Source of the DNA: a virus
Direction: 5' to 3' (one strand)
IMG/VR virus record: IMGVR_UViG_3300032562_000118
Coordinates: 1-31,617 of that record
DNA length: 31,617 nt
Shown here piece after piece: positions 6,715-24,682 of this stretch (positions are counted from its first letter, which is position 1; each line of letters starts with the position of its first letter). Made by a program: the position numbers and the translations under genes. The notes beneath the pieces were generated by a model that saw nothing but the letters and a program-made list of their open reading frames with translations, searched no databases and was not told where the DNA came from.

Positions 6715-7455
6715 ATGAAAAAACCGATCATGAATCCGGAACTTGCCCAGGAAGACGGCAAAAACTACGAAAACAGAATCCCGATGCGCTACTGGGCAGA
6801 AGATGACCTGCCAAGCCAGAAACTTTTGCTCAAAGGCAATGGCAGCTTGTCTGACGCTGAACTTCTCAGTATCATCATTGGCTCAGGTGTTTCCGGGGAA
6901 AATTCCCTTGATATTGCCATGAAAACACTGTCAATATGCGGAAATAACCTGTGCGAATTCTGGAAGTTCAGCGTTTCAGACCTTCAAAAGATTAAAGGCA
7001 TCGGTGAAAAACGAGCCGTGAAGATTGCTGCCATGTTTGCTCTGGCCCGTCGCCGGAATGAATCAGAAGTGATCTGTAAAAACAAGATCTCAAAGAGCCA
7101 GGATGCCTTTGAAATATTTCATTCCCTGATGGGCGACCTTCCCTATGAAGAATTCTGGCTCCTCCTTTTGAACAGAGCAAACAGGGTTGTCAAGAAAGTG
7201 AAGATTTCCGAAGGAGGAATTTCCGGGACTGTCGTTGATCCGAAAAAAATCTTCCAGATATGCCTGGAACAGCATGCAACCTCGATCATCCTGGGTCATA
7301 ACCATCCGAGCGGGACTATCACACCAAGCGAAGCCGACAACAAAATCACTAAAAAGATCAAAGATTGTGGCTTACTGCTTGATGTTGCTGTCCTGGATCA
7401 CATAATTGTCGGGGATGACCGGTTTTATTCCTTTGCCGACGAAGGAACGATTTGA
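6715..7455 (+). CDS. radC: RadC-family JAB1/MPN domain protein
   Basis: The full-length 246-aa protein has an N-terminal UPF0758 region, a helix-hairpin-helix (LQKIKGIGEKRAVKIAAM, residues 90-107) and a C-terminal JAMM-type metal site: Glu 145/146, HNHPSG (195-200), Ser 205 and Asp 208. RadC proteins are common on phages, integrative elements and plasmids; despite the name, a role in recombination repair is not established, and they often lie near antirestriction genes as here. The gene has its own leader (L2). The ATG at 6715 is followed by a second in-frame ATG at 6730; I keep the first because it directly follows L2. Confidence 0.93.
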   Translation: MKKPIMNPELAQEDGKNYENRIPMRYWAEDDLPSQKLLLKGNGSLSDAELLSIIIGSGVSGENSLDIAMKTLSICGNNLCEFWKFSVSDLQKIKGIGEKRAVKIAAMFALARRRNESEVICKNKISKSQDAFEIFHSLMGDLPYEEFWLLLLNRANRVVKKVKISEGGISGTVVDPKKIFQICLEQHATSIILGHNHPSGTITPSEADNKITKKIKDCGLLLDVAVLDHIIVGDDRFYSFADEGTI

Positions 7456-7461
7456 TATTCA

Positions 7462-7500
7462 TGGCGAGCCAGATGCCACTACAAATCCCAAGGGCATGGG
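7462..7500 (+). ncRNA. Tandem-hairpin motif, copy 1 (downstream of radC)
   Basis: TGGC (7462-7465) and GCCA (7475-7478) enclose the loop GAGCCAGAT; after an 8-nt spacer, CCCA (7487-7490) and TGGG (7497-7500) enclose AGGGCA. TCTTTTTG follows, so this copy could also act as a weak terminator for radC. Unlike the other two copies it is not next to a start codon, the next gene beginning 80 bp later. It may be the end of a leader whose gene was displaced by the AT-rich block. I do not recognise a named RNA family. Confidence 0.6.
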
Positions 7501-7579
7501 TCTTTTTGTTGTTATTAACAATTCCTCATTTGGACTAGATATTCCGTAAATTTACACCGTTAAACAAAAAACAAATAAC

Positions 7580-8092
7580 ATGGAAATCGATATTGTAAAG
7601 CACAATGGGCTAGACCAGAAAGATTCAAGTAAAAGTTATCCGGTTCTTGATTACAAGACCGTAAATCAAAGTACAGACTTACTATTGATCAAGCAAAGTC
7701 AAATGGGTGTTGACCATGAAAATGAAACAGAACAGTGTGATTTTCTTCAAATTGTTAAAATTCAATTTGTTGCTGCTTGTCGAATTGAATTAGCGGAGTG
7801 TGTCATAGTTGCTTTTTACCTTGGTGAAGGAGGCGAGCTCCTCCCTTATGTAATAAGTGGATTGCCATTACATTATTATCAAGAGATTGATCGTAGTATT
7901 TTGATAGATTATAAGTCATATTCTGAGATTTGTGAGATTACTCAAGAGAAGAAGCTTTCAATTTACGAATACTATCAGCATATGAAAGATGCTGATCAAT
8001 CATTAAATTCTTTGATGGTTTATCATGGCAAAGTGCTCAACTATGATGCGCAAATTGATTTGTGGGCCGAGGTAGATGGAAAAAGGAAATAG
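7580..8092 (+). CDS. Hypothetical protein at the start of the AT-rich block
   Basis: The 170-aa protein matches no family I know. Residues 1-45 are polar; a central hydrophobic stretch (about 60-83, FVAACRIELAECVIVAFYLG) looks like buried strands, followed by mixed helix with many Tyr and acidic residues. There is no signal peptide. It is AT-rich compared with the phage genes and starts the 3.4-kb block that ends with the restriction-modification pair. An ATG at 7580 follows an A-rich leader (AAACAAAAAACAAATAAC), common in Bacteroidota. It could be a defence accessory protein, but nothing in the sequence shows this. Confidence 0.68.
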   Translation: MEIDIVKHNGLDQKDSSKSYPVLDYKTVNQSTDLLLIKQSQMGVDHENETEQCDFLQIVKIQFVAACRIELAECVIVAFYLGEGGELLPYVISGLPLHYYQEIDRSILIDYKSYSEICEITQEKKLSIYEYYQHMKDADQSLNSLMVYHGKVLNYDAQIDLWAEVDGKRK

Positions 8093-8158
8093 TTCCTTGT
8101 TTTCTTCTCTATTGCATTTGTATAATTAACTTTCAAATATAACAGCAAATATAATTCT

Positions 8159-8461
8159 ATGAAAAGCAAACAGGTAGTTATTACAATAGGAGAAATTACT
8201 CGCTCTTTATTTGTTGGAGCCGTTCCTGGTCAAAATGCAACTTCTGGAGAAAATGGGTTTATAGCCTGTGGATTTTCTGCAGAAGATGGAAAACCAACTG
8301 ACCCAAATAAAGGGAAACGACTTGCAGAAATTCTCTTTGAAACTGAAGATGAAGCATTAAAACAGGGCGAAATAATTGTAAAATCCACAGCTAAAGCTCA
8401 ATATGCTAAAGCAAAAAAGGATGCAGCGGATAGACAACGAGCTTCAAAACGAAAAAGATAA
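8159..8461 (+). CDS. Small basic hypothetical protein
   Basis: The 100-aa product has a beta-like N-terminal half (VVITIGEITRSLFVGAVPGQ) and a helical, Lys/Arg/Ala-rich C-terminus (AKAKKDAADRQRASKRKR) that could bind nucleic acid. It lies 66 bp after the preceding gene and about 70 bp before the restriction endonuclease start, in the same AT-rich composition, so it probably arrived with them. I recognise no family. Confidence 0.62.
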   Translation: MKSKQVVITIGEITRSLFVGAVPGQNATSGENGFIACGFSAEDGKPTDPNKGKRLAEILFETEDEALKQGEIIVKSTAKAQYAKAKKDAADRQRASKRKR

Positions 8462-8534
8462 GAAGACTCTGCACAATTACAGATTATGAACATTAATGAA
8501 GTGGTTGAACTGGTTAAATATTGTAAATTTACTT

Positions 8535-9218
8535 ATGGAAATGAAAGAAAAATTAACAATATCGAAACTTTTAGAAGAAGCACAAATATTTTGTGTTGCA
8601 CAGTCAAAATTTCAACATAAAGAACTTTTTGGCGTTACCGACGGGAAAGCAGTTGGAACTCTTATAGAACAAAGTTTCCAAAAACATCTTAAAGAAAGAT
8701 TTGAAGTAGCAATTGGCTCTTCTGCAAGAGGAATTGATTTGCCTTCTGAAGATATTTTAACTGATATCAAAGTGACATCCATAGTTCAACCACAATCTTC
8801 TTGTCCGTTTAAGGACGCAAAACAAAAAATATTTGGACTTGGATATAATTTACTTGTTTTTGTTTATGATAAAAAAGACAATGCTGAAAGCCAAACTGCA
8901 ATTCTGGAGTTTGTAAGTTGTTCATTTATTTCAAAAGAAAGAACTGCTGATTTCACAACTACAAGTATCTTAAATGATATGAAGAAGGTCAACTCAAATG
9001 TGGAAGATATTGTTTCCTTTTTGAATGGTATTAAAATTCCAGCTGATGAAATCACTTTAAATCAAATAGCGGAACAAATATTATCTACAGAGATTACAAT
9101 AGGATATTTAACCATTTCAAACGCATTGCAATGGCGGCTACAATATAATAGAATTGTGAACCTAAGTGACGATATCGAAGGCATACACAAAATAGTAAAG
9201 TATAACAAGCCTGTATAA
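8535..9218 (+). CDS. Type II-like restriction endonuclease (PD-(D/E)xK)
   Basis: The 227-aa product contains a PD-(D/E)xK-type core: Glu 45 (GTLIEQSF), Asp 68 (GIDLPSED) and TDIKVTS with Asp 77 and Lys 79, the layout of many Type II endonucleases. It overlaps the methyltransferase by 1 bp, which supports the pairing. The frame is open from an ATG at 8496, but those first codons encode a Leu/Trp-rich stretch unlike a soluble enzyme, and the start at 8535 (MEMKEKLTIS) looks natural. A different frame from 8486 (MNINEVVELVKYCKFTYGNE) also looks protein-like there. Recognition sequence cannot be inferred. Confidence 0.75.
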   Translation: MEMKEKLTISKLLEEAQIFCVAQSKFQHKELFGVTDGKAVGTLIEQSFQKHLKERFEVAIGSSARGIDLPSEDILTDIKVTSIVQPQSSCPFKDAKQKIFGLGYNLLVFVYDKKDNAESQTAILEFVSCSFISKERTADFTTTSILNDMKKVNSNVEDIVSFLNGIKIPADEITLNQIAEQILSTEITIGYLTISNALQWRLQYNRIVNLSDDIEGIHKIVKYNKPV

Positions 9219-10987
9219 TGAAAGTATTTGAAGCAAATATTACTCATCAGGTTTCCGATTATCTAAATGTTAGTCTTAAAAACATTATATCTTTTGAAAT
9301 AGCAAATAAAAAATTGTTTGATGCCTTTGGCATACAGCATTTTTTTGATAATAATGAGGAATTAGAAACCCTAAAAGAAATCATTTCCGAAAATCATAAT
9401 GTTATTGAAGATCCTGATAGAGCAGAATACGGCGATTTTCAAACAAACGAAGATTTAGCAAACAAAGTAACTTTATATTTAGCCGTAAAAAATATTTCAC
9501 CTCAAATAGTAGTTGAACCAACTTGCGGTAAGGGTAATTTCATCATTGCATCTTTGCGAAATTTCAGCGCTATTAGAAATATATTCGGGGTGGAAATTTA
9601 CAAACCTTACGTTTGGGAAACTAAATTTAGTATTATCAATTTTTTTCTAGAAAACCCTGAACGCAGCAAGCCGGAAATTTCAATTTCACATTGCAATGTT
9701 TTCGACTATGACTTTAAACAAATTGCTAAGCATTTTTCAGATAAAGAAATTTTAATCATTGGCAATCCGCCTTGGGTAACAAACTCAAAATTGGGATGTC
9801 TTAATTCTTCTAACCTTCCGAAAAAAACTAATTTTAAAAATCATAGTGGCTTAGATGCTATGACTGGGAAAGGTAATTTTGATATTGCTGAATATATTAC
9901 ATTAACAATGATTGAAACCTTTCAACGAATGAAAGGAAATTTATTATTGTTGGTTAAAAATTCCGTCATCAAAAACATTGTTTTTGACCAAAACACAAAC
10001 CAGTACAGAATCTCATCTTTAGAAAAGCAATGCATTGATAGTAAAAAAGAATTTAATGTTTCCGTTGAAGCTTCTCTATTTTATTGCAAACTAAATTCAG
10101 TTCCGGAATTAGACTGCACGGAATTTAACTTTTATAACAACAAAATCTCTTATCAAAAATTTGGCTGGTTAAAGAAAAAATTTGTTTCCAACATTGATAC
10201 CTATCTACACAATAATGACATTGATGGAGAGAGTCCTTTCATATGGAGACAGGGCCTGAAGCATGACTGTTCCGCAATAATGGAATTAGACAGGGTTAAT
10301 GGGCATTATGTAAATGGATTGAATGAAGAGGTGAAATTTGAAGAAGGATTAGTCTACGGTATCCTTAAAAGTTCTGATCTAAAAAATACAGTAATATACC
10401 AGACAAGAAAATTCACAATCGTTACTCAAAAGAAGGTTGGACAAAGCACTATATACATCAAATCGGAATATCCCCAAACATATCAATACTTGATAGATCA
10501 TCAAAATTTTTTTGATGCAAGGAAATCAAGTATTTATAATAATAAGCCTGCATTTTCCATTTTCGGCATAGGGGACTATTCTTTTAAACTTTACAAAGTT
10601 GCAATATCAGGCCTTTACAAAACATTTCACTTTACATTAATCCTACCTCAAGATAATAAGCCTGTAATGCTTGATGACACTTGCTATTTTATAGGTTTTG
10701 ACAAAATTGAATTTGCCGTTTATGCTTTGATGCTTTTAAATTCCGAAACGACTATGCAATTCTTGCAATCAGTAACATTTGCAGACGCGAAAAGAACTTT
10801 TACAAAAGATGTTTTAATGCGAATAGACCTTTTAGCATTAGCAAAAAGGATTAATCTAAATGACTTACAGACGGAATTAACACGACTTAATGAAATGTAT
10901 CGTTTTAATTTAACTTTGGACTTGTGGGACACCTTTATAAAAGAAATTACGCCTGTAAGTAACAGTCAAATTGCAATGTTCGCTTAG
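9218..10987 (+). CDS. N6-adenine DNA methyltransferase (Eco57I-like)
   Basis: The 589-aa protein has the N6-adenine methyltransferase motifs: the pre-motif YGDFQT (71-76), motif I EPTCGKGNF (100-108) for AdoMet binding, an acidic GVEIYKP (124-130) and the catalytic motif IV GNPPW (182-186). The ~350-residue C-terminal half is probably the target-recognition region, as in Eco57I/TaqI-type enzymes. The start overlaps the endonuclease stop by 1 bp. The AT-rich gene contrasts with phage genes either side. It would protect phage and host DNA from the partner enzyme; in a phage the pair can exclude competing phages. No controller gene was found. Confidence 0.88.
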   Translation: MKVFEANITHQVSDYLNVSLKNIISFEIANKKLFDAFGIQHFFDNNEELETLKEIISENHNVIEDPDRAEYGDFQTNEDLANKVTLYLAVKNISPQIVVEPTCGKGNFIIASLRNFSAIRNIFGVEIYKPYVWETKFSIINFFLENPERSKPEISISHCNVFDYDFKQIAKHFSDKEILIIGNPPWVTNSKLGCLNSSNLPKKTNFKNHSGLDAMTGKGNFDIAEYITLTMIETFQRMKGNLLLLVKNSVIKNIVFDQNTNQYRISSLEKQCIDSKKEFNVSVEASLFYCKLNSVPELDCTEFNFYNNKISYQKFGWLKKKFVSNIDTYLHNNDIDGESPFIWRQGLKHDCSAIMELDRVNGHYVNGLNEEVKFEEGLVYGILKSSDLKNTVIYQTRKFTIVTQKKVGQSTIYIKSEYPQTYQYLIDHQNFFDARKSSIYNNKPAFSIFGIGDYSFKLYKVAISGLYKTFHFTLILPQDNKPVMLDDTCYFIGFDKIEFAVYALMLLNSETTMQFLQSVTFADAKRTFTKDVLMRIDLLALAKRINLNDLQTELTRLNEMYRFNLTLDLWDTFIKEITPVSNSQIAMFA

Positions 10988-11038
10988 ACTGACAAGCCGA
11001 ATATAATCCTAATATTATCCACTACATTTTAACTGATC

Positions 11039-11351
11039 GCTTTTTTCTTCCAAATCCAGGTCAAAGAAAAAAGCTTAGCAAAAAAGAAACCCCCACGCAT
11101 TGCTCAGTTCTGGCAGCTTTTTGGAAGTAAGTAAAAAGCAAGCAAAAAGCCAGCGCACTTTATTAAACTCGAAATTATCGCAAAGTTACCTGCGAAAAAT
11201 CCGCTTAAACAAGCTATAAAACTGTAAAGGGCGACCTCCTTAAGGAACTGTCGCTCTTCGAGTGTTGTCAGGTTGTTCCAATCATGACCTACACCCTTGA
11301 CATTATTTATTTTTCTCGGTATGCACTTGGGCATAAATTTCAATTTTAACC
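11039..11351 (+). repeat. Leader repeat L3 (upstream of ardC)
   Basis: The clearest copy. A perfect 11-bp hairpin GCTTTTTTCTT (11039-11049)/AAGAAAAAAGC (11064-11074) is followed by AAAAAAGAAACCCCC, GCCAGCGCAC, CTCGAAATTAT (11168) and CAAAGTTA (11181-11188). H1 is AGGGCGAC (11228-11235)/GTCGCTCT (11250-11257) around the palindrome TCCTTAAGGA. H2 pairs GTGT (11262-11265) with ACAC (11291-11294) and TCA with TGA inside. TTGACATTATTTAT begins at 11297 and TTGGGCATAAATTT at 11327. The tandem-hairpin motif then follows directly. A ~75-nt insertion (about 11100-11150) makes this copy longer. Confidence 0.78.
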
Positions 11352-11390
11352 AGGTGAGCCAGAAACCTAAATAAGACCCCAGGGCAGGGG
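11352..11390 (+). ncRNA. Tandem-hairpin motif, copy 2 (before ardC start)
   Basis: AGGT (11352-11355) and ACCT (11365-11368) enclose GAGCCAGAA; after 8 nt, CCCC (11377-11380) and GGGG (11387-11390) enclose AGGGCA. Only CGGATATC separates it from the ATG at 11399, so the second hairpin lies where the ribosome would contact the mRNA. Folding or ligand/protein binding here would plausibly control translation of ardC; that is inference. Confidence 0.68.
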
Positions 11391-11398
11391 CGGATATC

Positions 11399-12340
11399 AT
11401 GAACAACTCACAAATCTATGCAGCCATCACTGAGAAGATCATTGCCAACCTTGAAACAGCTGGAAGCTGGATGAAGCTCTGGCAGGTTCCTTCGCCGGTC
11501 AGCATGAATGGCCATTACTACCGGGGCATCAATCGTCTGGTGCTTTCTTCAGATCCCTACAAGAGCCGGGTTTATGGCACATTCCAGCAGATTCGCTCCA
11601 ACGGTGGACAGGTTCGCAAGGGCGAAAAATCCACTATCGTTGTGTTCTGGAAGACCGGCATGGAACAGGATGAAGCCACCGGCATTACAAAGAAAACATT
11701 CCTTCTGAGGTTTTACCATGTCTTCAATTCCGAACAGGCCGACTTTGACGAGCAGGGTAAACAAAAGATCGCCCACCTTCAAAGCCTGGTTGACGAAAAA
11801 GTCAACGATGAACACCTGGAGGCTGAATCAATCATCGAAGGCTATACAGGCCGTCCGGAAATTATCTTCTCAGACAAAGACGACCGCGCTTACTATGCCC
11901 CGGTTGCCGATCTGATCTCAGTTCCGGATAGAAAATATTTCACAAGCTCTTCTGCCTTCTACCGTGTGGTTTACCATGAGCTTGGTCACTCGACTGGCCA
12001 CCCCAAACGGCTCAACCGCTATGACGGAATGTCGAACAACTTTGGCGATATCCCATACAGCAAAGAGGAACTTGTTGCTGAACTCTGTTCTTCATTCCTC
12101 TCCGGTATCGCTCACCTTGACCCGGATATCCGAAACTCAGCTGCTTACATCAGGGGATGGGCATCGGCGCTCCGTGACAACCAGAAATGGGTCATGTGGG
12201 CTGCTGCAAGGGCTGAGAAGGCTGCCGATCATATCCTAGGCATTGACTCTTCTTACACTCCTTCAGAAGAAAAAACCACAGCTGAAGCGACTAGCGAAGT
12301 TCCGGTACTGGAGCCTGTCCTGGAAGACTCACCTTTTTAA
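11399..12340 (+). CDS. ardC: ArdC-like antirestriction protein (ssDNA-binding domain plus zincin)
   Basis: The 313-aa product has the ArdC layout: an N-terminal ssDNA-binding domain (about 1-130; GHYYRGINRLVLSSDPYKSR and VRKGEKSTIVVFWK are typical) and a C-terminal zincin-like metallopeptidase domain with HELGHSTGH (193-201) and Glu 224/228 as the likely third ligand (SKEELVAEL). Plasmid ArdC protects incoming DNA from restriction; here it should serve phage DNA entry. The protein ends EDSPF, an acidic tip resembling the SSB C-terminal peptide. It is preceded by L3 plus the tandem-hairpin motif and closed by a terminator, making a self-contained unit. Confidence 0.88.
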   Translation: MNNSQIYAAITEKIIANLETAGSWMKLWQVPSPVSMNGHYYRGINRLVLSSDPYKSRVYGTFQQIRSNGGQVRKGEKSTIVVFWKTGMEQDEATGITKKTFLLRFYHVFNSEQADFDEQGKQKIAHLQSLVDEKVNDEHLEAESIIEGYTGRPEIIFSDKDDRAYYAPVADLISVPDRKYFTSSSAFYRVVYHELGHSTGHPKRLNRYDGMSNNFGDIPYSKEELVAELCSSFLSGIAHLDPDIRNSAAYIRGWASALRDNQKWVMWAAARAEKAADHILGIDSSYTPSEEKTTAEATSEVPVLEPVLEDSPF

Positions 12341-12360
12341 CTGAACCATTCATTCAATAG

Positions 12361-12390
12361 AGCCATCCCGGGCAACCGGGGTGGTTTTTT
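12361..12390 (+). terminator. Intrinsic terminator after ardC
   Basis: CCATCCCGG (12363-12371) pairs with CCGGGGTGG (12376-12384), one G-U pair, with a GCAA loop; six T follow. The ATG at 12381 lies inside this stem, so the next gene starts later. Confidence 0.9.
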
Positions 12391-12413
12391 CATTTACACT
12401 AAAACCAAAACCC

Positions 12414-12632
12414 ATGAACAATTTTAACAGTTATTCCGGGGATCCCCGCCAGATCACAGCCCGCTTCGCAAGTAAATGTCACACTTGCGGCAAACCAATA
12501 AAAAAAGGCGAACAAATCATCTACTGGCCAAATGGCAAACATGCCGGGCATCTGAAATGTGATGAGGCTGACTACCGAAATTCTTTGGCTTCCTTTGAAG
12601 ATGAAGAGAGGTACAACAGTCAGTACCGGTAA
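12414..12632 (+). CDS. Small zinc-finger-like protein
   Basis: The 72-aa product has CHTCGKPIKKGEQI followed by KHAGHLKC, a Cys-x2-Cys ... His-x3-His-x2-Cys arrangement (about residues 23-53) that resembles a single PARP-type or similar zinc ribbon, as found in small Bacteroidota phage and element proteins. The frame opens at 12381 but that ATG is in the ardC terminator, so I use the ATG at 12414 (MNNFNSYSG). The N-terminus is Asn/Ser-rich and the C-terminus acidic and Tyr-rich. It lies between two terminators and has no leader repeat. It may bind DNA or RNA. Confidence 0.75.
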   Translation: MNNFNSYSGDPRQITARFASKCHTCGKPIKKGEQIIYWPNGKHAGHLKCDEADYRNSLASFEDEERYNSQYR

Positions 12633-12643
12633 TTCCGATTCTT

Positions 12644-12676
12644 AAGCCGCTGTGAGAAACCACAGCGGCTTTTTTC
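12644..12676 (+). terminator. Intrinsic terminator after the zinc-finger gene
   Basis: AAGCCGCTGTG (12644-12654) pairs perfectly with CACAGCGGCTT (12661-12671), 6-nt loop, followed by a T run. Confidence 0.93.
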
Positions 12677-13008
12677 ATGCTCGTTAATAGGTGTAGTCAT
12701 GAATTTGCCAGGGATTTTGCGCTTTCGGGATGTCTATCATGTCTTTATGCAACTCTACAAGCATTTTTCCTTTGATCATTCAGCCCTTCTGTTTTCCTTT
12801 TCTGGGATGCAGTTCACATAAATCTGATGTCTGTGGTCTTGGTTTAATTCCTATGCTAAGCTATTATTCCATTCCAGGGTGAAAGTGCTACTCATTCAAG
12901 AATTTTCCCGGCATATCCTGCAGGTGTTCGGTATTCCAGTTCCTACTTGAGTGCCCCTCCATGGTCTTAATTACACTTGCATATAAATTTCACTTAAAAA
13001 TCACAGCC
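12677..13008 (+). other. Gene-free stretch, possible gene remnant on the minus strand
   Basis: No + strand gene was found. On the minus strand there are three short open stretches: MEGHSSRNWNTEHLQDMPGK (from 12963 leftwards), one ending LCELHPRKGKQKG, and MIKGKMLVELHKDMIDIPKA ending near 12685. They read like protein but are broken by stops and have no clear start order, so this is either a decayed gene or chance. The last ~50 bp before 13009 are A/T-rich and probably hold the promoter of the next gene. No leader repeat is present here. Confidence 0.35.
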
Positions 13009-13320
13009 ATGAAAAATTTTGTAAAAAACTACATCGGAAAAGGAAAGAAAGTCGAAGGCCTTGAAATCATTAAGATCAACTTCAAAATTGAAGATCTCGT
13101 AAAGTTCTCACATAAATACAAGGATGAAGACTACATCACCATTGAGATCGCAAAACTAAAAAGCCCTGACAAATTCGGACATGAATACACCGCTTATGTC
13201 AACCGTCTGGAGGAATCTGAAGTAAAGGAACCGGTAAAGCCAGTTGAAACCCCCAAAAAGAAACGTGGCACTTCAAAGAAGGCATCGAATGATGTTCCAT
13301 CAGGAGATATCCCCTTCTAA
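13009..13320 (+). CDS. Putative ssDNA-binding-associated small protein with SSB-like tail
   Basis: The 103-aa product has a beta-rich N-terminal domain (VEGLEIIKINFKIEDLVKF, DYITIEIAKLKSPDKFGHEY) of a kind common on Bacteroidota phages and mobile elements, a Lys/Pro-rich linker (about 70-92) and the terminal GDIPF. The final acidic plus Pro-Phe tip matches the SSB C-terminal peptide that recruits repair and replication proteins. A role on single-stranded DNA is therefore plausible but not proven. I use the ATG at 13009 rather than 12961 because the preceding sequence is A/T-rich and non-coding in character. A terminator follows. Confidence 0.72.
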   Translation: MKNFVKNYIGKGKKVEGLEIIKINFKIEDLVKFSHKYKDEDYITIEIAKLKSPDKFGHEYTAYVNRLEESEVKEPVKPVETPKKKRGTSKKASNDVPSGDIPF

Positions 13321-13340
13321 TCCATTATAGAATCCCTCAG

Positions 13341-13370
13341 AGAGGCTGCCTTCCGGCAGTCTCTTTTTTT
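13341..13370 (+). terminator. Intrinsic terminator
   Basis: AGAGGCTGCC (13341-13350) pairs with GGCAGTCTCT (13355-13364), with one G-U pair and a TTCC loop; a run of T follows. Confidence 0.92.
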
Positions 13371-13382
13371 GTTCGCGAATCA

Positions 13383-13659
13383 GGCTTTTTTCTTTGAGAC
13401 CAGGACAAAGAAGAAACCCTGCCAAAAAAGAAACCCCTTCCGGGCAGCTTTTAAAAAAGCAAGCAAAAGCCAACCCACTATTACTCAAAATTCGCAGCAA
13501 AGTTAAACTCATGAAAATCTTTTTCGCTAAGAGTGACCGCCTGAAGGCACCGTCACCCTTTCAGGTTCATTCAGATTTTGAAGGTAAAATCAGACCTGAA
13601 CTCTTGCTTAAAATTTTCATTCCGTTTGTTCCCGTTGGCATAAATTTTTTCTTAAACCC
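13383..13659 (+). repeat. Leader repeat L4 (upstream of the 148-aa gene)
   Basis: Elements in the same order as L1-L3: CTTTG (13392-13396)/CAAAG (13406-13410) hairpin within a T-rich/A-rich pair of arms; AAAAAAGAAACCCC; CTCAAAATT (13484) and CAAAGTTA (13498-13505); H1 as GTGAC (13533-13537)/GTCAC (13552-13556) with inner GCC/GGC, both stems differing from the other copies by compensating changes; H2 TTCAGGT (13560-13566)/ACCTGAA (13594-13600) with inner GATTTT/AAAATC; TTGCTTAAAATTTTC (13604); and CCCGTTGGCATAAATTT (13631). Confidence 0.78.
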
Positions 13660-13698
13660 AGGCGAGCCAGATGCCTAAAAAAGTCTCTAGGGCAAGAG
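13660..13698 (+). ncRNA. Tandem-hairpin motif, copy 3 (before the 148-aa gene)
   Basis: AGGC (13660-13663)/GCCT (13673-13676) around GAGCCAGAT, 8-nt A-rich spacer, then CTCT (13685-13688)/AGAG (13695-13698) around AGGGCA. The ATG at 13708 is 9 nt further on. Both stems differ from copies 1 and 2 with pairing kept, and both loops are unchanged. Confidence 0.68.
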
Positions 13699-13707
13699 CA
13701 TAACACA

Positions 13708-14154
13708 ATGACAAAGATCACCGCACCAGTACAGAAGCCGACCAATGGCGGAGCATCCAAAGAAGAAACCGCAGTTCTTGCAGCCGTAAAAACGGTTCTC
13801 AATCCTGAACAGAACAAAACCGAAGAAAAAAAGCCGGTTTTGCAGATTGAACCGGAAAAGCCGGTCATTCCCGCTCCGGAGCCAAAGAAGGAAATGACCA
13901 TGCTGGAAAAAATCCTTAAGGTCGAAAATCTCCAGTTGGTCGTTGAAAAAAGGGCGAAACTGGTCCAGACCCGCTCAGAATTGGAGCGCTTCCAGATTTC
14001 CTCAAATGATTTCAATTGTTCCATGAGGCTGAATGATTCAGACGGAAACGTCTTCACCACCAGCTTCACTCCTGGAATCAAGAAAGTCATTGATTTTCTT
14101 AAATCATCATTCGATGCAAGCATCACCGATGTAGAAAACAAGATCACTTTCTAA
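13708..14154 (+). CDS. 148-aa hypothetical protein with disordered N-terminus
   Basis: Residues 1-65 are rich in Pro, Lys, Glu and Ala (KPVLQIEPEKPVIPAPEPKK) and probably disordered. Residues 65-100 predict a coiled-coil helix (MLEKILKVENLQLVVEKRAK) and the rest is a mixed domain ending in a helix. No known family is recognised. It is controlled by L4 plus the tandem-hairpin motif and closed by a terminator, the same arrangement as ardC, so it likely belongs to the same regulon and may act on DNA or host defence. Confidence 0.72.
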   Translation: MTKITAPVQKPTNGGASKEETAVLAAVKTVLNPEQNKTEEKKPVLQIEPEKPVIPAPEPKKEMTMLEKILKVENLQLVVEKRAKLVQTRSELERFQISSNDFNCSMRLNDSDGNVFTTSFTPGIKKVIDFLKSSFDASITDVENKITF

Positions 14155-14180
14155 AGCCTTCGGTTTCATTCAGCGATCTG

Positions 14181-14213
14181 GGTGTTCAGTCGAAAGACTG
14201 AACACCTTTTTTT
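14181..14213 (+). terminator. Intrinsic terminator closing the accessory region
   Basis: GGTGTTCAGTC (14181-14191) pairs perfectly with GACTGAACACC (14196-14206) around a GAAA tetraloop, followed by seven T. It separates the cassette region from the portal operon. Confidence 0.95.
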
Positions 14214-19887: not shown

Positions 19888-22800
19888 ATGAAAAAGTTCT
19901 ATCTGTTTTTATTTTTCGCATTTGGCATTTTCAGCGTTTTCAGCCAAACCCAAATCACACTGACTTTTATTGGCAAAGATTCTTTAAATCAGAATCTTGT
20001 TTCGCTTGACAGTGTTCATGTGAAAAATTTAACTGAGAATTGCGATACTTTATTGTATGGACCAGTTGCAGTGCTTTCACTAATAGCTAACTGGCCTGTC
20101 GGGATTAATGAGATTAATGCCAATAAATCAGGAGAATTCACTTTAAAGCAAAATTATCCCAATCCTTTTCATGGATCTACATTTGTGAATATTTACAGGG
20201 AATATGGTGGCCTATTGAATCTAATCCTATTTGATGAGTTAGGAACCAAATTAGCATCATATCAAAACGTGTTTGAAAAAGGATTTCATTCGTTTGTTAT
20301 TTCCTCATATGGTAATAAAGTTCTATTTCTGGTAGTATTTGATGATAAAAACAACCGGTCAATTAGAATTATAAGTGCCGGACAAGGCAATGATAATAAT
20401 ACCATTAAATATCTTGGATATACTCCGAATGTTGAAAAAAGCACATTAAAGAATTCGGATAACTCAGGGTTTATTTTTTATCTGGGCAACCAATTGATTT
20501 ATACAGCCTATGCAAATGGATTTAACAATAAAATAATCGCAGACAGCCCTACAACTAATACTAACTATACTTTTTTGATGGCACCAGTAGGTACTCCACC
20601 TACAGTTACAACAACACAAGTTACAAATATCACACAAACAACCGCAACAAGCGGAGGTAATGTCACATCAGATGGTGGATATCCTATATTAACACGAGGA
20701 GTTTGCTGGAGCTCCTCACCTAATCCAACGACAGCAAATAGTTATACAGTAGATGGCAGTGGCCTTGGGACATTTGTAAGTTATTTGGTTGGATTAGCAC
20801 CAAGCACAACTTATTATATCCGTGCGTATGCAATAAATGGTGTAGGAACTGCCTACGGGAATGAGTTAACATTTATCACATTGCAGAATATTTCTTTACC
20901 AACCGTAACAACTGCTGCTATTACAAATATTACCCAAACCACTGCAACAAGCGGGGGTAATGTTATATCAGATGGGGGAGCAACGGTAGCATCAAGAGGG
21001 GTATGCTGGAGTACTTCTCCAAGTCCAACAACAGCAAATAGTCATACCTCGGATGGCAGTGGACTAGGTTCATTTATAAGTTATTTAACAGGGTTAGCCC
21101 CGAATACAATTTATTATGTTCGAGCATATGCAACAAACAGTGTTGGTACAGCATATGGTAATGAAAACTCCTTTACCACTGGTCAAACTATTACGCCTCC
21201 AACTGTAACAACAACCGGTGTTACAAACATTGCCCAGACAACGGCCACAAGTGGTGGCAACGTGACATCAGACGGCGGAGCAACAGTAACTGCGAGAGGG
21301 GTATGCTGGAGTACTTCTACTTCACCAACTATTACTGGGAGTCATACAACGGATGGTACTGGTACTGGAACATTCGTAAGTAATCTTACGGGTTTAACAG
21401 GAGGTACACTTTATTATGTTCGTGCTTACGCTACTAATAGTGCCGGAACATCATACGGGAATGAATTAACCTTTACAACTTTAACTTTACCGACTGTAAC
21501 TACAAATACTGTTACAAATATTACGCAGACAACAGCGACAAGCGGAGGAAATGTGACAGCAGACGGGGGAGCAACAGTGACGGCAAGAGGCGTGTGCTGG
21601 AGTACAACTTCATCGCCCACTATTGCAGGTAGTCATAGTACAGATGGAAACGGGGTAGGTACATTTGTGAGCAATATTACTGGATTGACCGGAAGTATTC
21701 TTTACTACGTTCGGGCATATGCAACCAATAATGTAGGGACAGCTTATGGCAATGAGTTAACATTTACAACACTGAATTTTCCAATAGTAACAACAGCTGC
21801 AGTGACGAATATCGCTCAAACTACTGCAACTAGTGGCGGGAATGTGACTTCTGATGGAGGTGCCACTGTTTCGGCAAGGGGTGTTTGTTGGAGTACTTCT
21901 TCAAACCCAACAACAGCGGGGAATCATACATCTGATGGAACAGGTACGGGAACATTTGTAAGTAACCTGACTGGTTTAATAGGAGGCACTTTGTACCATG
22001 TTCGTGCTTTCGCGACAAATAGTGTAGGAACATCTTACGGTAGCGATTTATCATTTACAACATTGAATTTCCCAACTGTTACTACTGCTACAATTACCAA
22101 TATCACTCAAACCACAGCAACAAGTGGCGGCACTGTCACATCAGATGGTGGAGCCACAGTTACAGTTCGAGGTGTTTGTTGGGGTACCTCATCAAACCCA
22201 ACAACAACAGGTAGTCATACGATTGATGGAGCAGGCACTGGATCTTTTGTCAGTAACCTAACGGGTCTCACAGGAGGTACTTTATACCACGTTCGTGCTT
22301 ATGCAACAAATAGTGTGGGGACATCATACGGAAACGATTTATCATTTTCAACATTGAATTTGCCGACTATAACAACAGCTACGATTACCAATATTACCCA
22401 AACTACGGCAACAAGTGGGGGCACCGTAACGTCAGATGGTGGATCTAGTGTCATAGCGAGAGGTGTTTGTTGGAGTACCTCATCAAACCCTACAATTGCG
22501 GGGAGTCATACGACTGATGGAACTGGAACAGGAACATTTGTAAGTAACATAACTGGATTAACAGGAGGTAATTATTATTATGTTCGTGCTTATGCTACCA
22601 ACAGTCTTGGTACATCTTACGGGAACGAATTAACATTTACTACACCGATTTTACCCACTGTCACAACACTTCTGGTTACTAATATCACAAGTTCAACAGC
22701 AGCGAGCGGAGGAAATGTTTCATCGGATGGAGGAGCTACTGTTACAGCCCGAGGTGTTTGTTGGAGCACAAGTCCAAATCCAACAACAACCAATAATCAC

Positions 22801-23400
22801 ACCACCGATGGCACTGGCATTGGTTCATTTGTGAGTAATATTACTGGATTAACAAATAATACTTTATATTATGTTAGAGCATATGCAACTAACAGTGTAG
22901 GAACAGCATATGGAAATCAAGTTACTTTTACAACAGTATTTAGCGTTGGAGAGTCATATGGAGGTGGAATTGTTTTTTATATTGATGGAACGGGCCAACA
23001 TGGGCTTATTTGTGCTTCCAATGATCAGGTTCAAGGTCAATGGGGTTGTTTTGGGACTTCAATTTCTGGGACCTCCCTTACGATTGGAACAGGACAATCT
23101 AATACCACAATTATTGTAAATGGATGTAGCACGACAGGCATAGCAGCCCGCATTTGTAATGACCTTGTTTTGAATGGATATAGTGATTGGTATTTACCAT
23201 CAAGGGATGAACTTAATCTTATGTGGATAATGTTTTCAACAACAGGAATTGGCAGTTTTTCAACTGGTGGGGCCGCATATTGGAGTTCCTCCCAATACAG
23301 CGCTAACTACGCATGGTCAGAGTTCTTCGATAGTGGCTACCAAAGCTATATGGCTGGGAAGAACTTCGCCGCCAATGTCCGTGCCGTCAGGACATTTTAA
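19888..23400 (+). CDS. Secreted eight-repeat surface protein ending in a DUF1566-like, DGR-variable domain
   Basis: The 1170-aa protein has a signal peptide (MKKFYLFLFFAFGIFSVFSQ), then a region (about 70-170) whose FTLKQNYPNPF matches the T9SS type A sorting domain, here near the N-terminus rather than the C-terminus. Eight near-identical ~97-residue fibronectin-like repeats (TVTT..TNITQTTATSGGN...GGATV.ARGVCW) fill about 237-1017. The C-terminus (about 1018-1170) carries YSDWYLPSRDELNLMW and YWSSSQYSANYAW, typical of DUF1566/C-type-lectin-like DGR target domains. It is AT-rich and inserted within the tail operon. It probably acts outside the cell, perhaps as a variable adhesin, or as a phage fibre if it does not use its signal peptide. 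Confidence 0.82.
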   Translation: MKKFYLFLFFAFGIFSVFSQTQITLTFIGKDSLNQNLVSLDSVHVKNLTENCDTLLYGPVAVLSLIANWPVGINEINANKSGEFTLKQNYPNPFHGSTFVNIYREYGGLLNLILFDELGTKLASYQNVFEKGFHSFVISSYGNKVLFLVVFDDKNNRSIRIISAGQGNDNNTIKYLGYTPNVEKSTLKNSDNSGFIFYLGNQLIYTAYANGFNNKIIADSPTTNTNYTFLMAPVGTPPTVTTTQVTNITQTTATSGGNVTSDGGYPILTRGVCWSSSPNPTTANSYTVDGSGLGTFVSYLVGLAPSTTYYIRAYAINGVGTAYGNELTFITLQNISLPTVTTAAITNITQTTATSGGNVISDGGATVASRGVCWSTSPSPTTANSHTSDGSGLGSFISYLTGLAPNTIYYVRAYATNSVGTAYGNENSFTTGQTITPPTVTTTGVTNIAQTTATSGGNVTSDGGATVTARGVCWSTSTSPTITGSHTTDGTGTGTFVSNLTGLTGGTLYYVRAYATNSAGTSYGNELTFTTLTLPTVTTNTVTNITQTTATSGGNVTADGGATVTARGVCWSTTSSPTIAGSHSTDGNGVGTFVSNITGLTGSILYYVRAYATNNVGTAYGNELTFTTLNFPIVTTAAVTNIAQTTATSGGNVTSDGGATVSARGVCWSTSSNPTTAGNHTSDGTGTGTFVSNLTGLIGGTLYHVRAFATNSVGTSYGSDLSFTTLNFPTVTTATITNITQTTATSGGTVTSDGGATVTVRGVCWGTSSNPTTTGSHTIDGAGTGSFVSNLTGLTGGTLYHVRAYATNSVGTSYGNDLSFSTLNLPTITTATITNITQTTATSGGTVTSDGGSSVIARGVCWSTSSNPTIAGSHTTDGTGTGTFVSNITGLTGGNYYYVRAYATNSLGTSYGNELTFTTPILPTVTTLLVTNITSSTAASGGNVSSDGGATVTARGVCWSTSPNPTTTNNHTTDGTGIGSFVSNITGLTNNTLYYVRAYATNSVGTAYGNQVTFTTVFSVGESYGGGIVFYIDGTGQHGLICASNDQVQGQWGCFGTSISGTSLTIGTGQSNTTIIVNGCSTTGIAARICNDLVLNGYSDWYLPSRDELNLMWIMFSTTGIGSFSTGGAAYWSSSQYSANYAWSEFFDSGYQSYMAGKNFAANVRAVRTF
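20596..22938 (+). repeat. Eight tandem fibronectin-like coding repeats
   Basis: Eight units of about 290 bp begin near 20596, 20899, 21199, 21490, 21780, 22070, 22365 and 22655, each starting with (L/P/F)P(T/I)(V/I)TT and containing RGVCWS and YYVRAYATNSVGT. DNA identity among units is substantial but imperfect, so copy number could vary by recombination. Confidence 0.85.
23281..23397 (+). other. Putative DGR variable region (VR)
   Basis: The C-terminal codons of the DUF1566-like domain show a run of codons compatible with AAY template codons: TAC AGC GCT AAC TAC, then TTC TTC GAT AGT GGC TAC, AGC TAT, GCT, AAC TTC GCC GCC AAT. In the 27 codons from TAC at 23296 to AAT at 23376, 19 end in C or T. 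Intervening and flanking codons (TGG AGT TCC TCC CAA; GTC CGT GCC GTC AGG ACA TTT) look fixed, as expected of non-adenine positions and an initiation-of-mutagenic-homing-like end. No template repeat or reverse transcriptase lies in the window. Confidence 0.62.
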
Positions 23401-23953: not shown

Positions 23954-24682
23954 ATGAAAGACAAAATTTTTGAAATGTACAAATCAATTTCTGTCGGCAA
24001 TAACCAGATTTGTTCAGAATGCAACAACGAAGGAGCACTTGGAAAGCCTGTATCAATTTATTTTATTGGTGAAAATTTTCATAAATCTGATGACACGATT
24101 TTATTTGTAGGTAAAACGGCTGTTGGAGGACTTGGAATTGGCCCTTTCGTTGACAATCTGTTTACTGATGCAACAACATTTGGTGAATTGAGTCTTGACC
24201 TTAAAGAGGAAAATGCAAAAAGACGAGCATTTTATTCATATACAAATGAAATTGTCACACAGTACTATGGTTCGTTTGAGATTGGCAAACAGTTTATTGC
24301 CTTAACAAACTTAGTGAAATGCAATAATGCTTCAACTAAGGACGAAACATCTTATCATATAATGGAACACTGTATCAATAGCTTAAGAGTAACATGGAGG
24401 GAAATTGAAATCTTAAAACCAAAGAGAATAATCTTTTATACAGGCAATACAGATTACGATGATTTTATTGAAAATTTTGAACCAGAAAATTATGTTGACT
24501 ATCTTGAAATTGAACGCGATAAATCTGGTATTTGGTGGCATGGCAGGTATGTTGATGAAAACCAAGTCTCGATTTGCGACATTTTGAGAATCAATCATCC
24601 TGACAGAATAAGATATATTGGTGGTAACGCTAAGGATAATTATATATCAAAAGTTGTAGACTGGTTACACATGACAAAATGA
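23954..24682 (+). CDS. Uracil-DNA glycosylase superfamily-like protein
   Basis: The 242-aa product shows the UDG-superfamily layout: ILFVGKTAVGGLG (about residues 49-61) as the first strand and loop, FIALTNLVKCNN (about 115-126) as the second conserved strand, LKPKRIIFYTG (154-164), and a His-Pro motif RINHPDRI (about 215-222). Two N-terminal Cys (CSEC) and C124 could belong to a metal or Fe-S site as in family 4/5 enzymes. It would remove uracil or damaged bases, or serve as an anti-defence enzyme. Catalytic residues are not secure; the function may differ. Confidence 0.55.
   Translation: MKDKIFEMYKSISVGNNQICSECNNEGALGKPVSIYFIGENFHKSDDTILFVGKTAVGGLGIGPFVDNLFTDATTFGELSLDLKEENAKRRAFYSYTNEIVTQYYGSFEIGKQFIALTNLVKCNNASTKDETSYHIMEHCINSLRVTWREIEILKPKRIIFYTGNTDYDDFIENFEPENYVDYLEIERDKSGIWWHGRYVDENQVSICDILRINHPDRIRYIGGNAKDNYISKVVDWLHMTK

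Follow-up and report, generated by a model that had tools for sequence, protein, structure and literature searches.

We describe here a small RNA element, made of two short hairpins in tandem, that occurs three times in IMG/VR virus record IMGVR_UViG_3300032562_000118, of which the whole stretch of 31,617 nt was analyzed (hereafter, the window). The element belongs to what appears to be an undescribed RNA family of double-stranded DNA (dsDNA) phages, represented by 148 distinct copies on about 75 IMG/VR phage contigs, with up to nine in a single phage (record G026). The existence of this family, its stems, its position and the set of genes behind it are established. With moderate confidence, we read the element as a cis-acting translational control RNA of this phage group, most likely operated by a trans-acting protein, that switches a regulon of accessory genes. 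The window copies and their parts are as follows, with scores from model R1 (described below):

7462..7501, + strand: element copy 1, orphan; 58.8 bits; no ATG in range
7462-7465/7475-7478, stem P1 of copy 1; 7487-7490/7497-7500, stem P2; 7485-7501, bulge-spanning pair
7466-7474 and 7491-7496, + strand: loops 1 and 2 of copy 1
11352..11391, + strand: element copy 2, ardC leader; 61.9 bits; 7 nt to ATG
11352-11355/11365-11368 (AGGU/ACCU), stem P1 of copy 2; 11377-11380/11387-11390, stem P2; 11375-11391, bulge-spanning pair
11356-11364 and 11381-11386, + strand: loops 1 and 2 of copy 2
11358..11360, + strand: loop-1 half (GCC) of the kissing helix predicted for the ardC leader from compensatory changes in relatives; partner GGC at 11383-11385
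13660..13699, + strand: element copy 3, leader of the 148-aa gene; 65.4 bits; 8 nt to ATG
13660-13663/13673-13676, stem P1 of copy 3; 13685-13688/13695-13698, stem P2; 13683-13699, bulge-spanning pair
13664-13672 and 13689-13694, + strand: loops 1 and 2 of copy 3

Distribution of the element family

The spaced loop pair GAGCCAGA...AGGGCA lies on the + strand of the window at 7466-7496, 11356-11386 and 13664-13694, and 100 dinucleotide shuffles of the window sequence gave an expectation of zero. An initial annotation, made by reading the window alone, had placed three tandem-hairpin units at these sites with 8 nt between the hairpins, and both the sites and the spacing were found again. A pattern fixed on the two loops retrieved 59 IMG/VR stretches, which split cleanly into true copies, with 6 to 8 of 8 positions paired, and chance ones, with 2 to 4; an initial pattern with variable spacing had been too loose, its matches being mostly chance. 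Model R1, built from 30 ungapped copies (alignment A2), found more than 100 copies in 36 phage records, the window included, with true matches scoring 26 to 68 bits and noise no higher than about 12. Extra contigs were brought in by two further patterns with freed loops. For the family total, distinctness was judged on the element plus 40 nt, and the number of contigs was tallied from contig lists.

The initial annotation knew of no family with such loops, and Rfam 15 agrees: the window gave no match at the gathering score, its elements gave none at E<=10, and the elements of four relative loci (L334, L340, L401 and L404) gave none at E<=2. No copy was found among INPHARED phages or in four related named phage sequences that share a related terminase or ArdC. 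The proposal that relatives be sought in Bacteroidota phage, plasmid and genome DNA was rewarded by many copies in IMG/VR phages, but no true copy was found in PLSDB plasmids or in genomes sampled around a Bacteroidales metagenome-assembled genome (395 of its phylum, searched with R1, and 395 of its class, searched with the pattern, the sets overlapping in part); since the phylum was searched under strict filters, weak copies may have escaped detection. A 22.5-bit PLSDB match in enterobacterial IncFIB plasmids lacked hairpin 1 and was judged to be chance, and a 29-bit match in one genome of the Bacteroidota phylum, apparently coding sequence, also lacked it. We found no description of the family in the open-access literature searched.

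Stems and probable loop-loop pairing

The case for the predicted structure of the element is comparative, and counts were made on 102 regular copies (alignment A6). Stem P2 has five pairs (28-31 with 38-41, and 26-42 across a 1-nt bulge), of which 99.8% of cells are paired, with two-sided changes at all five. The bulge-spanning pair is G-C in 67 copies, A-U in 34 and G-U in one, and the bulged nucleotide is U, A or C, never G. The initial annotation had drawn the four contiguous pairs of P2 as they are but had missed this fifth. Its four-pair first stem holds for the window copies, whereas in the family P1 has a 3-bp core (4-18, 5-17 and 6-16; GGC/GCC, GGU/ACC and once GCU/AGC), to which an outer pair, 3-19, is added in 28 of 102 copies. 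The GGU/ACC type of change occurs thirteen times at the inner pair of P1, and GCU/AGC is seen once. The A-rich linker keeps A22, A24 and A25 (the last in 102/102), which like G13 are conserved unpaired positions.

That stem pairing outlasts sequence change, as had been claimed from the three window copies, is seen in strong covariation throughout the alignment. The covariation score was 0.352, compared to 0.132 for shuffled sequences and 0.02-0.06 for slid partners, and a structure-blind ranking of all column pairs at least four apart (average-product-corrected G statistic) put the P2 and P1 pairs in places 1-6 and the loop-loop pair 12-33 in place 8 of 780, figures that are not phylogeny-free p-values since the copies come from related phages.

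The loops follow the consensus GNGCCAGAW (loop 1) and ARGGCA (loop 2). They had been described as unchanging, which is true of the three window copies; in the family they are constrained rather than invariant, with compensating changes. Freely varying loops would have spoken against the element, and the variation stays within limits that mostly keep loop-loop pairing. The GCC of loop 1 stands opposite the GGC of loop 2, and this core is kept in nearly all of the regular copies (101 G-C and one G-U at the first pair; 102 C-G at the second; 95 C-G, six U-G and one mismatch at the third). Because variation in most loops is so slight, it is the deviating copies that are informative. U12 is seen only with A33, in 8/8 distinct sequences from several phages and genes (naive Fisher p 2e-6). 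Compensatory loops pair UACC with GGUA at L336:1251 (loop 1 GUACC, loop 2 AGGGUA), GCCUU with AAGGC at L401:7297, and GCCAU with AUGGC at L410:10419. At L424:2063-2107 the core is swapped: GUGGCUAAU occurs with CGAGCCA, so that UGGCU faces AGCCA over five pairs, and this unit, at 15.6 bits, is a real copy by its geometry, with an ATG 7 nt behind. A descriptor scan set to accept only units with both stems, four or more pairs in the kissing helix and an ATG close by returned known copies and L424:2063, with 10 matches in shuffled sequence. At L334:11274 (AGCGCA) only three kissing pairs can be drawn, in a different register. Taken together, these comparisons give good support to a predicted kissing helix of 3-5 bp between the loops, the contact that the initial annotation had suspected. 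Three copies have a hairpin-like insertion on the 3' side of loop 1 (L283:5279-5341, L409:808-874 and L424:1082-1147), and one of these insertions contains CCTGAGCGTAGTCGAAGG.

Start codons, downstream genes and hosts

Among the 139 copies with a gene behind them the start codon is always ATG, and in 137 it follows the closing pair at 7 nt (50 copies), 8 nt (68) or 9 nt (19). The start codons already recognized behind copies 2 and 3 (11399 and 13708) are therefore an instance of a general arrangement. The genes next to the window copies, and a putative promoter, are:

6715..7455, + strand: radC-like gene 5' of orphan copy 1 (PHROG 10276 DNA repair protein)
11399..12340, + strand: ardC-like antirestriction gene behind copy 2 (Pfam ArdcN 2e-21, MPTase-PolyVal 2.5e-31)
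13624..13650, + strand: putative promoter region 5' of copy 3 (TTTGTTC ... GCATAAATTTT), from sequence pattern alone
13708..14154, + strand: 148-aa gene behind copy 3, whose homologue family carries the element

Genes behind the element fall into 45 families without sequence similarity to one another, including the 148-aa family (34 copies), RadC (15), ArdC (13), DUF6573, DnaJ-like, SymE, zinc-ribbon, SLOG, RecT and SSB, and many of no known type. SymE-like toxin genes of phages stand behind the element at L411:2427 and L341:6265. In phages mapped gene by gene, the element genes are grouped in accessory modules, and no element stands before structural genes. A protein-only profile search, run with two sub-alignments, returned 35 homologues of the 148-aa gene, two of them truncated by a contig end; the element is upstream of all 33 others. 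The region upstream of element genes is structured (GC 0.52, minimum free energy (MFE) -8.6), and that of other genes of these phages is A-rich and weakly structured (GC 0.37, MFE -4.6).

About 93 of the 148 copies follow a promoter-like box. A sequence shared upstream of many copies (for example in L334, L345 and L349), TTGAC-NN-GAATCCG-NNN-GGCTCAAT ... TAATTT, may be a phage-specific promoter. For 33 of the 148, an upstream open reading frame (ORF) ends no more than 30 nt away, and because copies also precede operon-internal genes, the element goes with the start codon rather than with the promoter or the mRNA end. It is hardly credible, then, that the element is only a stabilizer of the mRNA 5' end; the many copies closely behind promoter-like boxes would suit that role, but those directly after an upstream ORF inside operons would not, and a stabilizer has no need of a fixed distance to the AUG.

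Copy 1 begins 7 nt past the radC stop with no start codon behind it and, in its present state, cannot gate a gene. An orphan relative, L366:4288, resembles it, beginning 7-8 nt past a radC stop and lacking a start behind. Further pairs of element and gene come after radC in relatives (L334, for example), and copy 1 is therefore best read as a remnant left after loss of its gene; beyond it, the window continues with a type II restriction-modification (R-M) module. The copy at L341:6714 is without the ArdC-type gene that is kept in L346. At L336:1251 and in the group L377/L378/L389/L390/L394, a terminator-like hairpin comes after the element, and these copies may conceivably act as small RNAs. 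Those at L336:1251-1295 and L377:1304-1346 sit at the 3' ends of genes, directly before the hairpin and lacking a downstream gene, and are possibly decoy RNAs or remnants. Orphans that adjoin lost or replaced genes, the R-M module between copies 1 and 2, and units repeated in one orientation between cassettes would all be expected of a DNA-level recombination or replication site at which accessory cassettes are exchanged. We nevertheless consider such a site very improbable, as the near-fixed ATG distance, the G-U pairs, the kissing covariation and the operon-internal copies point to RNA.

The phages are uncultured, with terminases nearest to those of Polaribacter, Flavobacterium, Cellulophaga and Bacteroides phages, plus two Microcystis phages. 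Their other gene starts are A-rich at -14..-11 with few Shine-Dalgarno (SD)-like sites (15%), which is the pattern of Bacteroidota (PMC6847099), and the host phylum is likely Bacteroidota. Structure near the start is known to tune initiation in F. johnsoniae (PMC6847099).

Proposed translational control and related RNAs

In the mechanism that we propose, hairpin 1 (3-bp core, 9-nt loop), hairpin 2 (4 bp, 1-nt bulge, 1 bp, 6-nt loop) and the A-rich linker would form one compact unit, the two hairpins being held in place by the kissing helix. As the element ends 7-9 nt before the AUG, in the region covered by the 30S subunit, its folded state should decide ribosome loading, and from this we infer an effect on translation initiation. 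Since a G+C-rich fold replaces an unstructured A-rich leader, the free or bound unit would be expected to limit 30S loading; that the outcome is repression rather than activation is a guess. Because the same element precedes many unrelated accessory genes, it would switch them as a regulon of DNA repair and recombination, antirestriction, small toxin and functionally unassigned genes. A phage or host protein recognizing the kissing complex would most likely operate the switch, with a logic like that of phage translational operators; here too it is our guess that the reader is a protein rather than a metabolite or the ribosome. The initial annotation had offered a cis-regulatory RNA, a protein-binding site or a riboswitch; the evidence supports these down to the level of a cis-regulatory RNA.

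Several observations weigh against this mechanism. The copies are related, so their sequence changes are not fully independent, and single-sequence folding is no better than that of shuffled sequences (z near 0). Folded alone, the ardC leader (window 11352-11420) pairs GGTGAG with CTCAC at the beginning of the ardC coding sequence, a modeled alternative that may be chance or a switch partner. There is no evident regulator among the phage genes examined, and no candidate gene is universal. An SSB-like family with MKNFVKNYIGKGK and a DIPF tail (window 13009-13317) lies beside many element modules, is itself consistently without the element, and has a confidently predicted all-beta/helix domain that matched no solved fold; as a regulator it was rejected, being not found in several element-bearing phages (G009/G010-type). 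The 148-aa protein, which resembles a prefoldin-type coiled coil or hairpins in weak matches only, is not favored as an autoregulator. Finally, spacing within 1 nt fits a positive ribosome contact equally well as repression.

Such a contact is the basis of an alternative that we regard as possible, if clearly a minority view, in which phage mRNA would gain priority in SD-poor hosts by recruiting host ribosomes through docking of the kissing complex to the 30S platform. The near-fixed spacing and the constant ATG suit it, the element occupies the place where SD pairing or an A-12/A-13 signal would act, and the other genes of these phages have the few SD-like sites and A-rich starts noted above. 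Bacteroidia ribosomes, moreover, sequester the anti-SD in a bS21/bS18/bS6 pocket (PMC9976891). On the other hand, a structured initiation region normally makes for less initiation (PMC6847099), the structural genes of the same phages lack the element, and among accessory genes it is confined to a subset. That a phage-wide kissing-hairpin RNA replaces the SD signal in SD-poor hosts by direct 30S docking, so privileging the translation of phage genes, is a rather doubtful proposition.

The nearest known RNAs are the radC and STAXI motifs in gene context, guanidine-II in build and the T4 operators in logic. The radC RNA motif lies upstream of RadC and antirestriction genes, as does the phage element, with its 15 RadC and 13 ArdC genes. 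Named after radC, a gene type also found behind the phage element, it is likewise a cis-regulatory RNA that recurs over a short distance, with three copies in locus L429, but it is 149 nt long, has other folds and was reported from Proteobacteria (RF01754; Weinberg 2010, PMC2864571). The RF01754 model gave no match in window positions 7000-14200 at E<=10 or in L334, L340, L401 and L404 at E<=2, with L429 as positive control at 104 bits, and conversely model R2 did not find the phage family in radC-motif loci, where a single 16.8-bit chance match lacked the loops. STAXI (RF01728) is also built of pseudoknotted units in repeated copies, found close to SSB and antirestriction genes on mobile DNA, but belongs to Enterobacteriales and forms tandem pseudoknots with UUCG loops and unclear placement (PMC2864571). 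The cmscan search with RF01728 found no match in the window or the four relative loci, and A6 holds no UUCG loops.

The guanidine-II riboswitch (mini-ykkC) carries ACGR loops and is not known to have a conserved bulge pair, whereas the loops of the phage element are GNGCCAGAW and ARGGCA and no Rfam match was found. The two are alike in having two short hairpins and a linker, with loops proposed to kiss (PMC7544219), a contact that the phage element shares on the comparative evidence of compensatory changes; guanidine-II has other hosts and other genes. A small-molecule riboswitch of this kind, in which ligand binding would bring the two loops into contact, with the start then blocked or freed, seems unlikely. 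Two stem loops proposed to kiss on ligand binding are the same build (PMC7544219), and the marginal 3-bp stem 1 and the conserved unpaired A22, A24, A25 and G13 would be in keeping with it. However, the 45 unrelated gene families have no metabolic theme, no copy was found in the sampled bacterial chromosomes, and the occurrence of a swapped complement in place of the loop core (L424:2063) speaks against a pocket that reads fixed bases.

The T4 translational operators (gp32 pseudoknot, gp43 hairpin and RegA sites) are located in phage leaders at the start codon, where they block initiation (PMC3014915), and the phage element has the same location in 137/139 cases. RegA also acts on many genes (PMC3014915), but its sites are without structure; the gp32 and gp43 sites are autoregulatory and single-gene, and no T4 site is a multi-gene kissing-hairpin unit. 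The rpsO/S15 pseudoknot is also an operator for translation (PMC3014915), but of a single host ribosomal protein gene. Were the phage element to gate translation, it would differ from the RegA sites in being a structured operator system for many genes, combining a tight structure-to-start-codon geometry with a regulon of about 45 gene families in dsDNA phages. Its setting would be hosts that make no use of SD pairing and whose initiation is for that reason poorly understood. The element may also serve as a marker of accessory genes, as any ORF 7-9 nt behind it would be a regulon member, and could aid the annotation of unknown antirestriction and counter-defense candidates.

Between orphan copy 1 and the ardC element, window positions 8496-10987 encode a type II restriction enzyme (PADLOC 2e-73) and a methyltransferase (1e-126), so that a phage-carried R-M module adjoins an antirestriction gene. 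The protein encoded at 19888-23400 (1170 aa), perhaps a variable receptor protein, contains repeated FN3-like units together with an NYPNPF-like motif, and its C terminus carries an Lcl_C domain. A Uracil-DNA glycosylase superfamily protein is encoded at 23954-24682, within the structural gene region.

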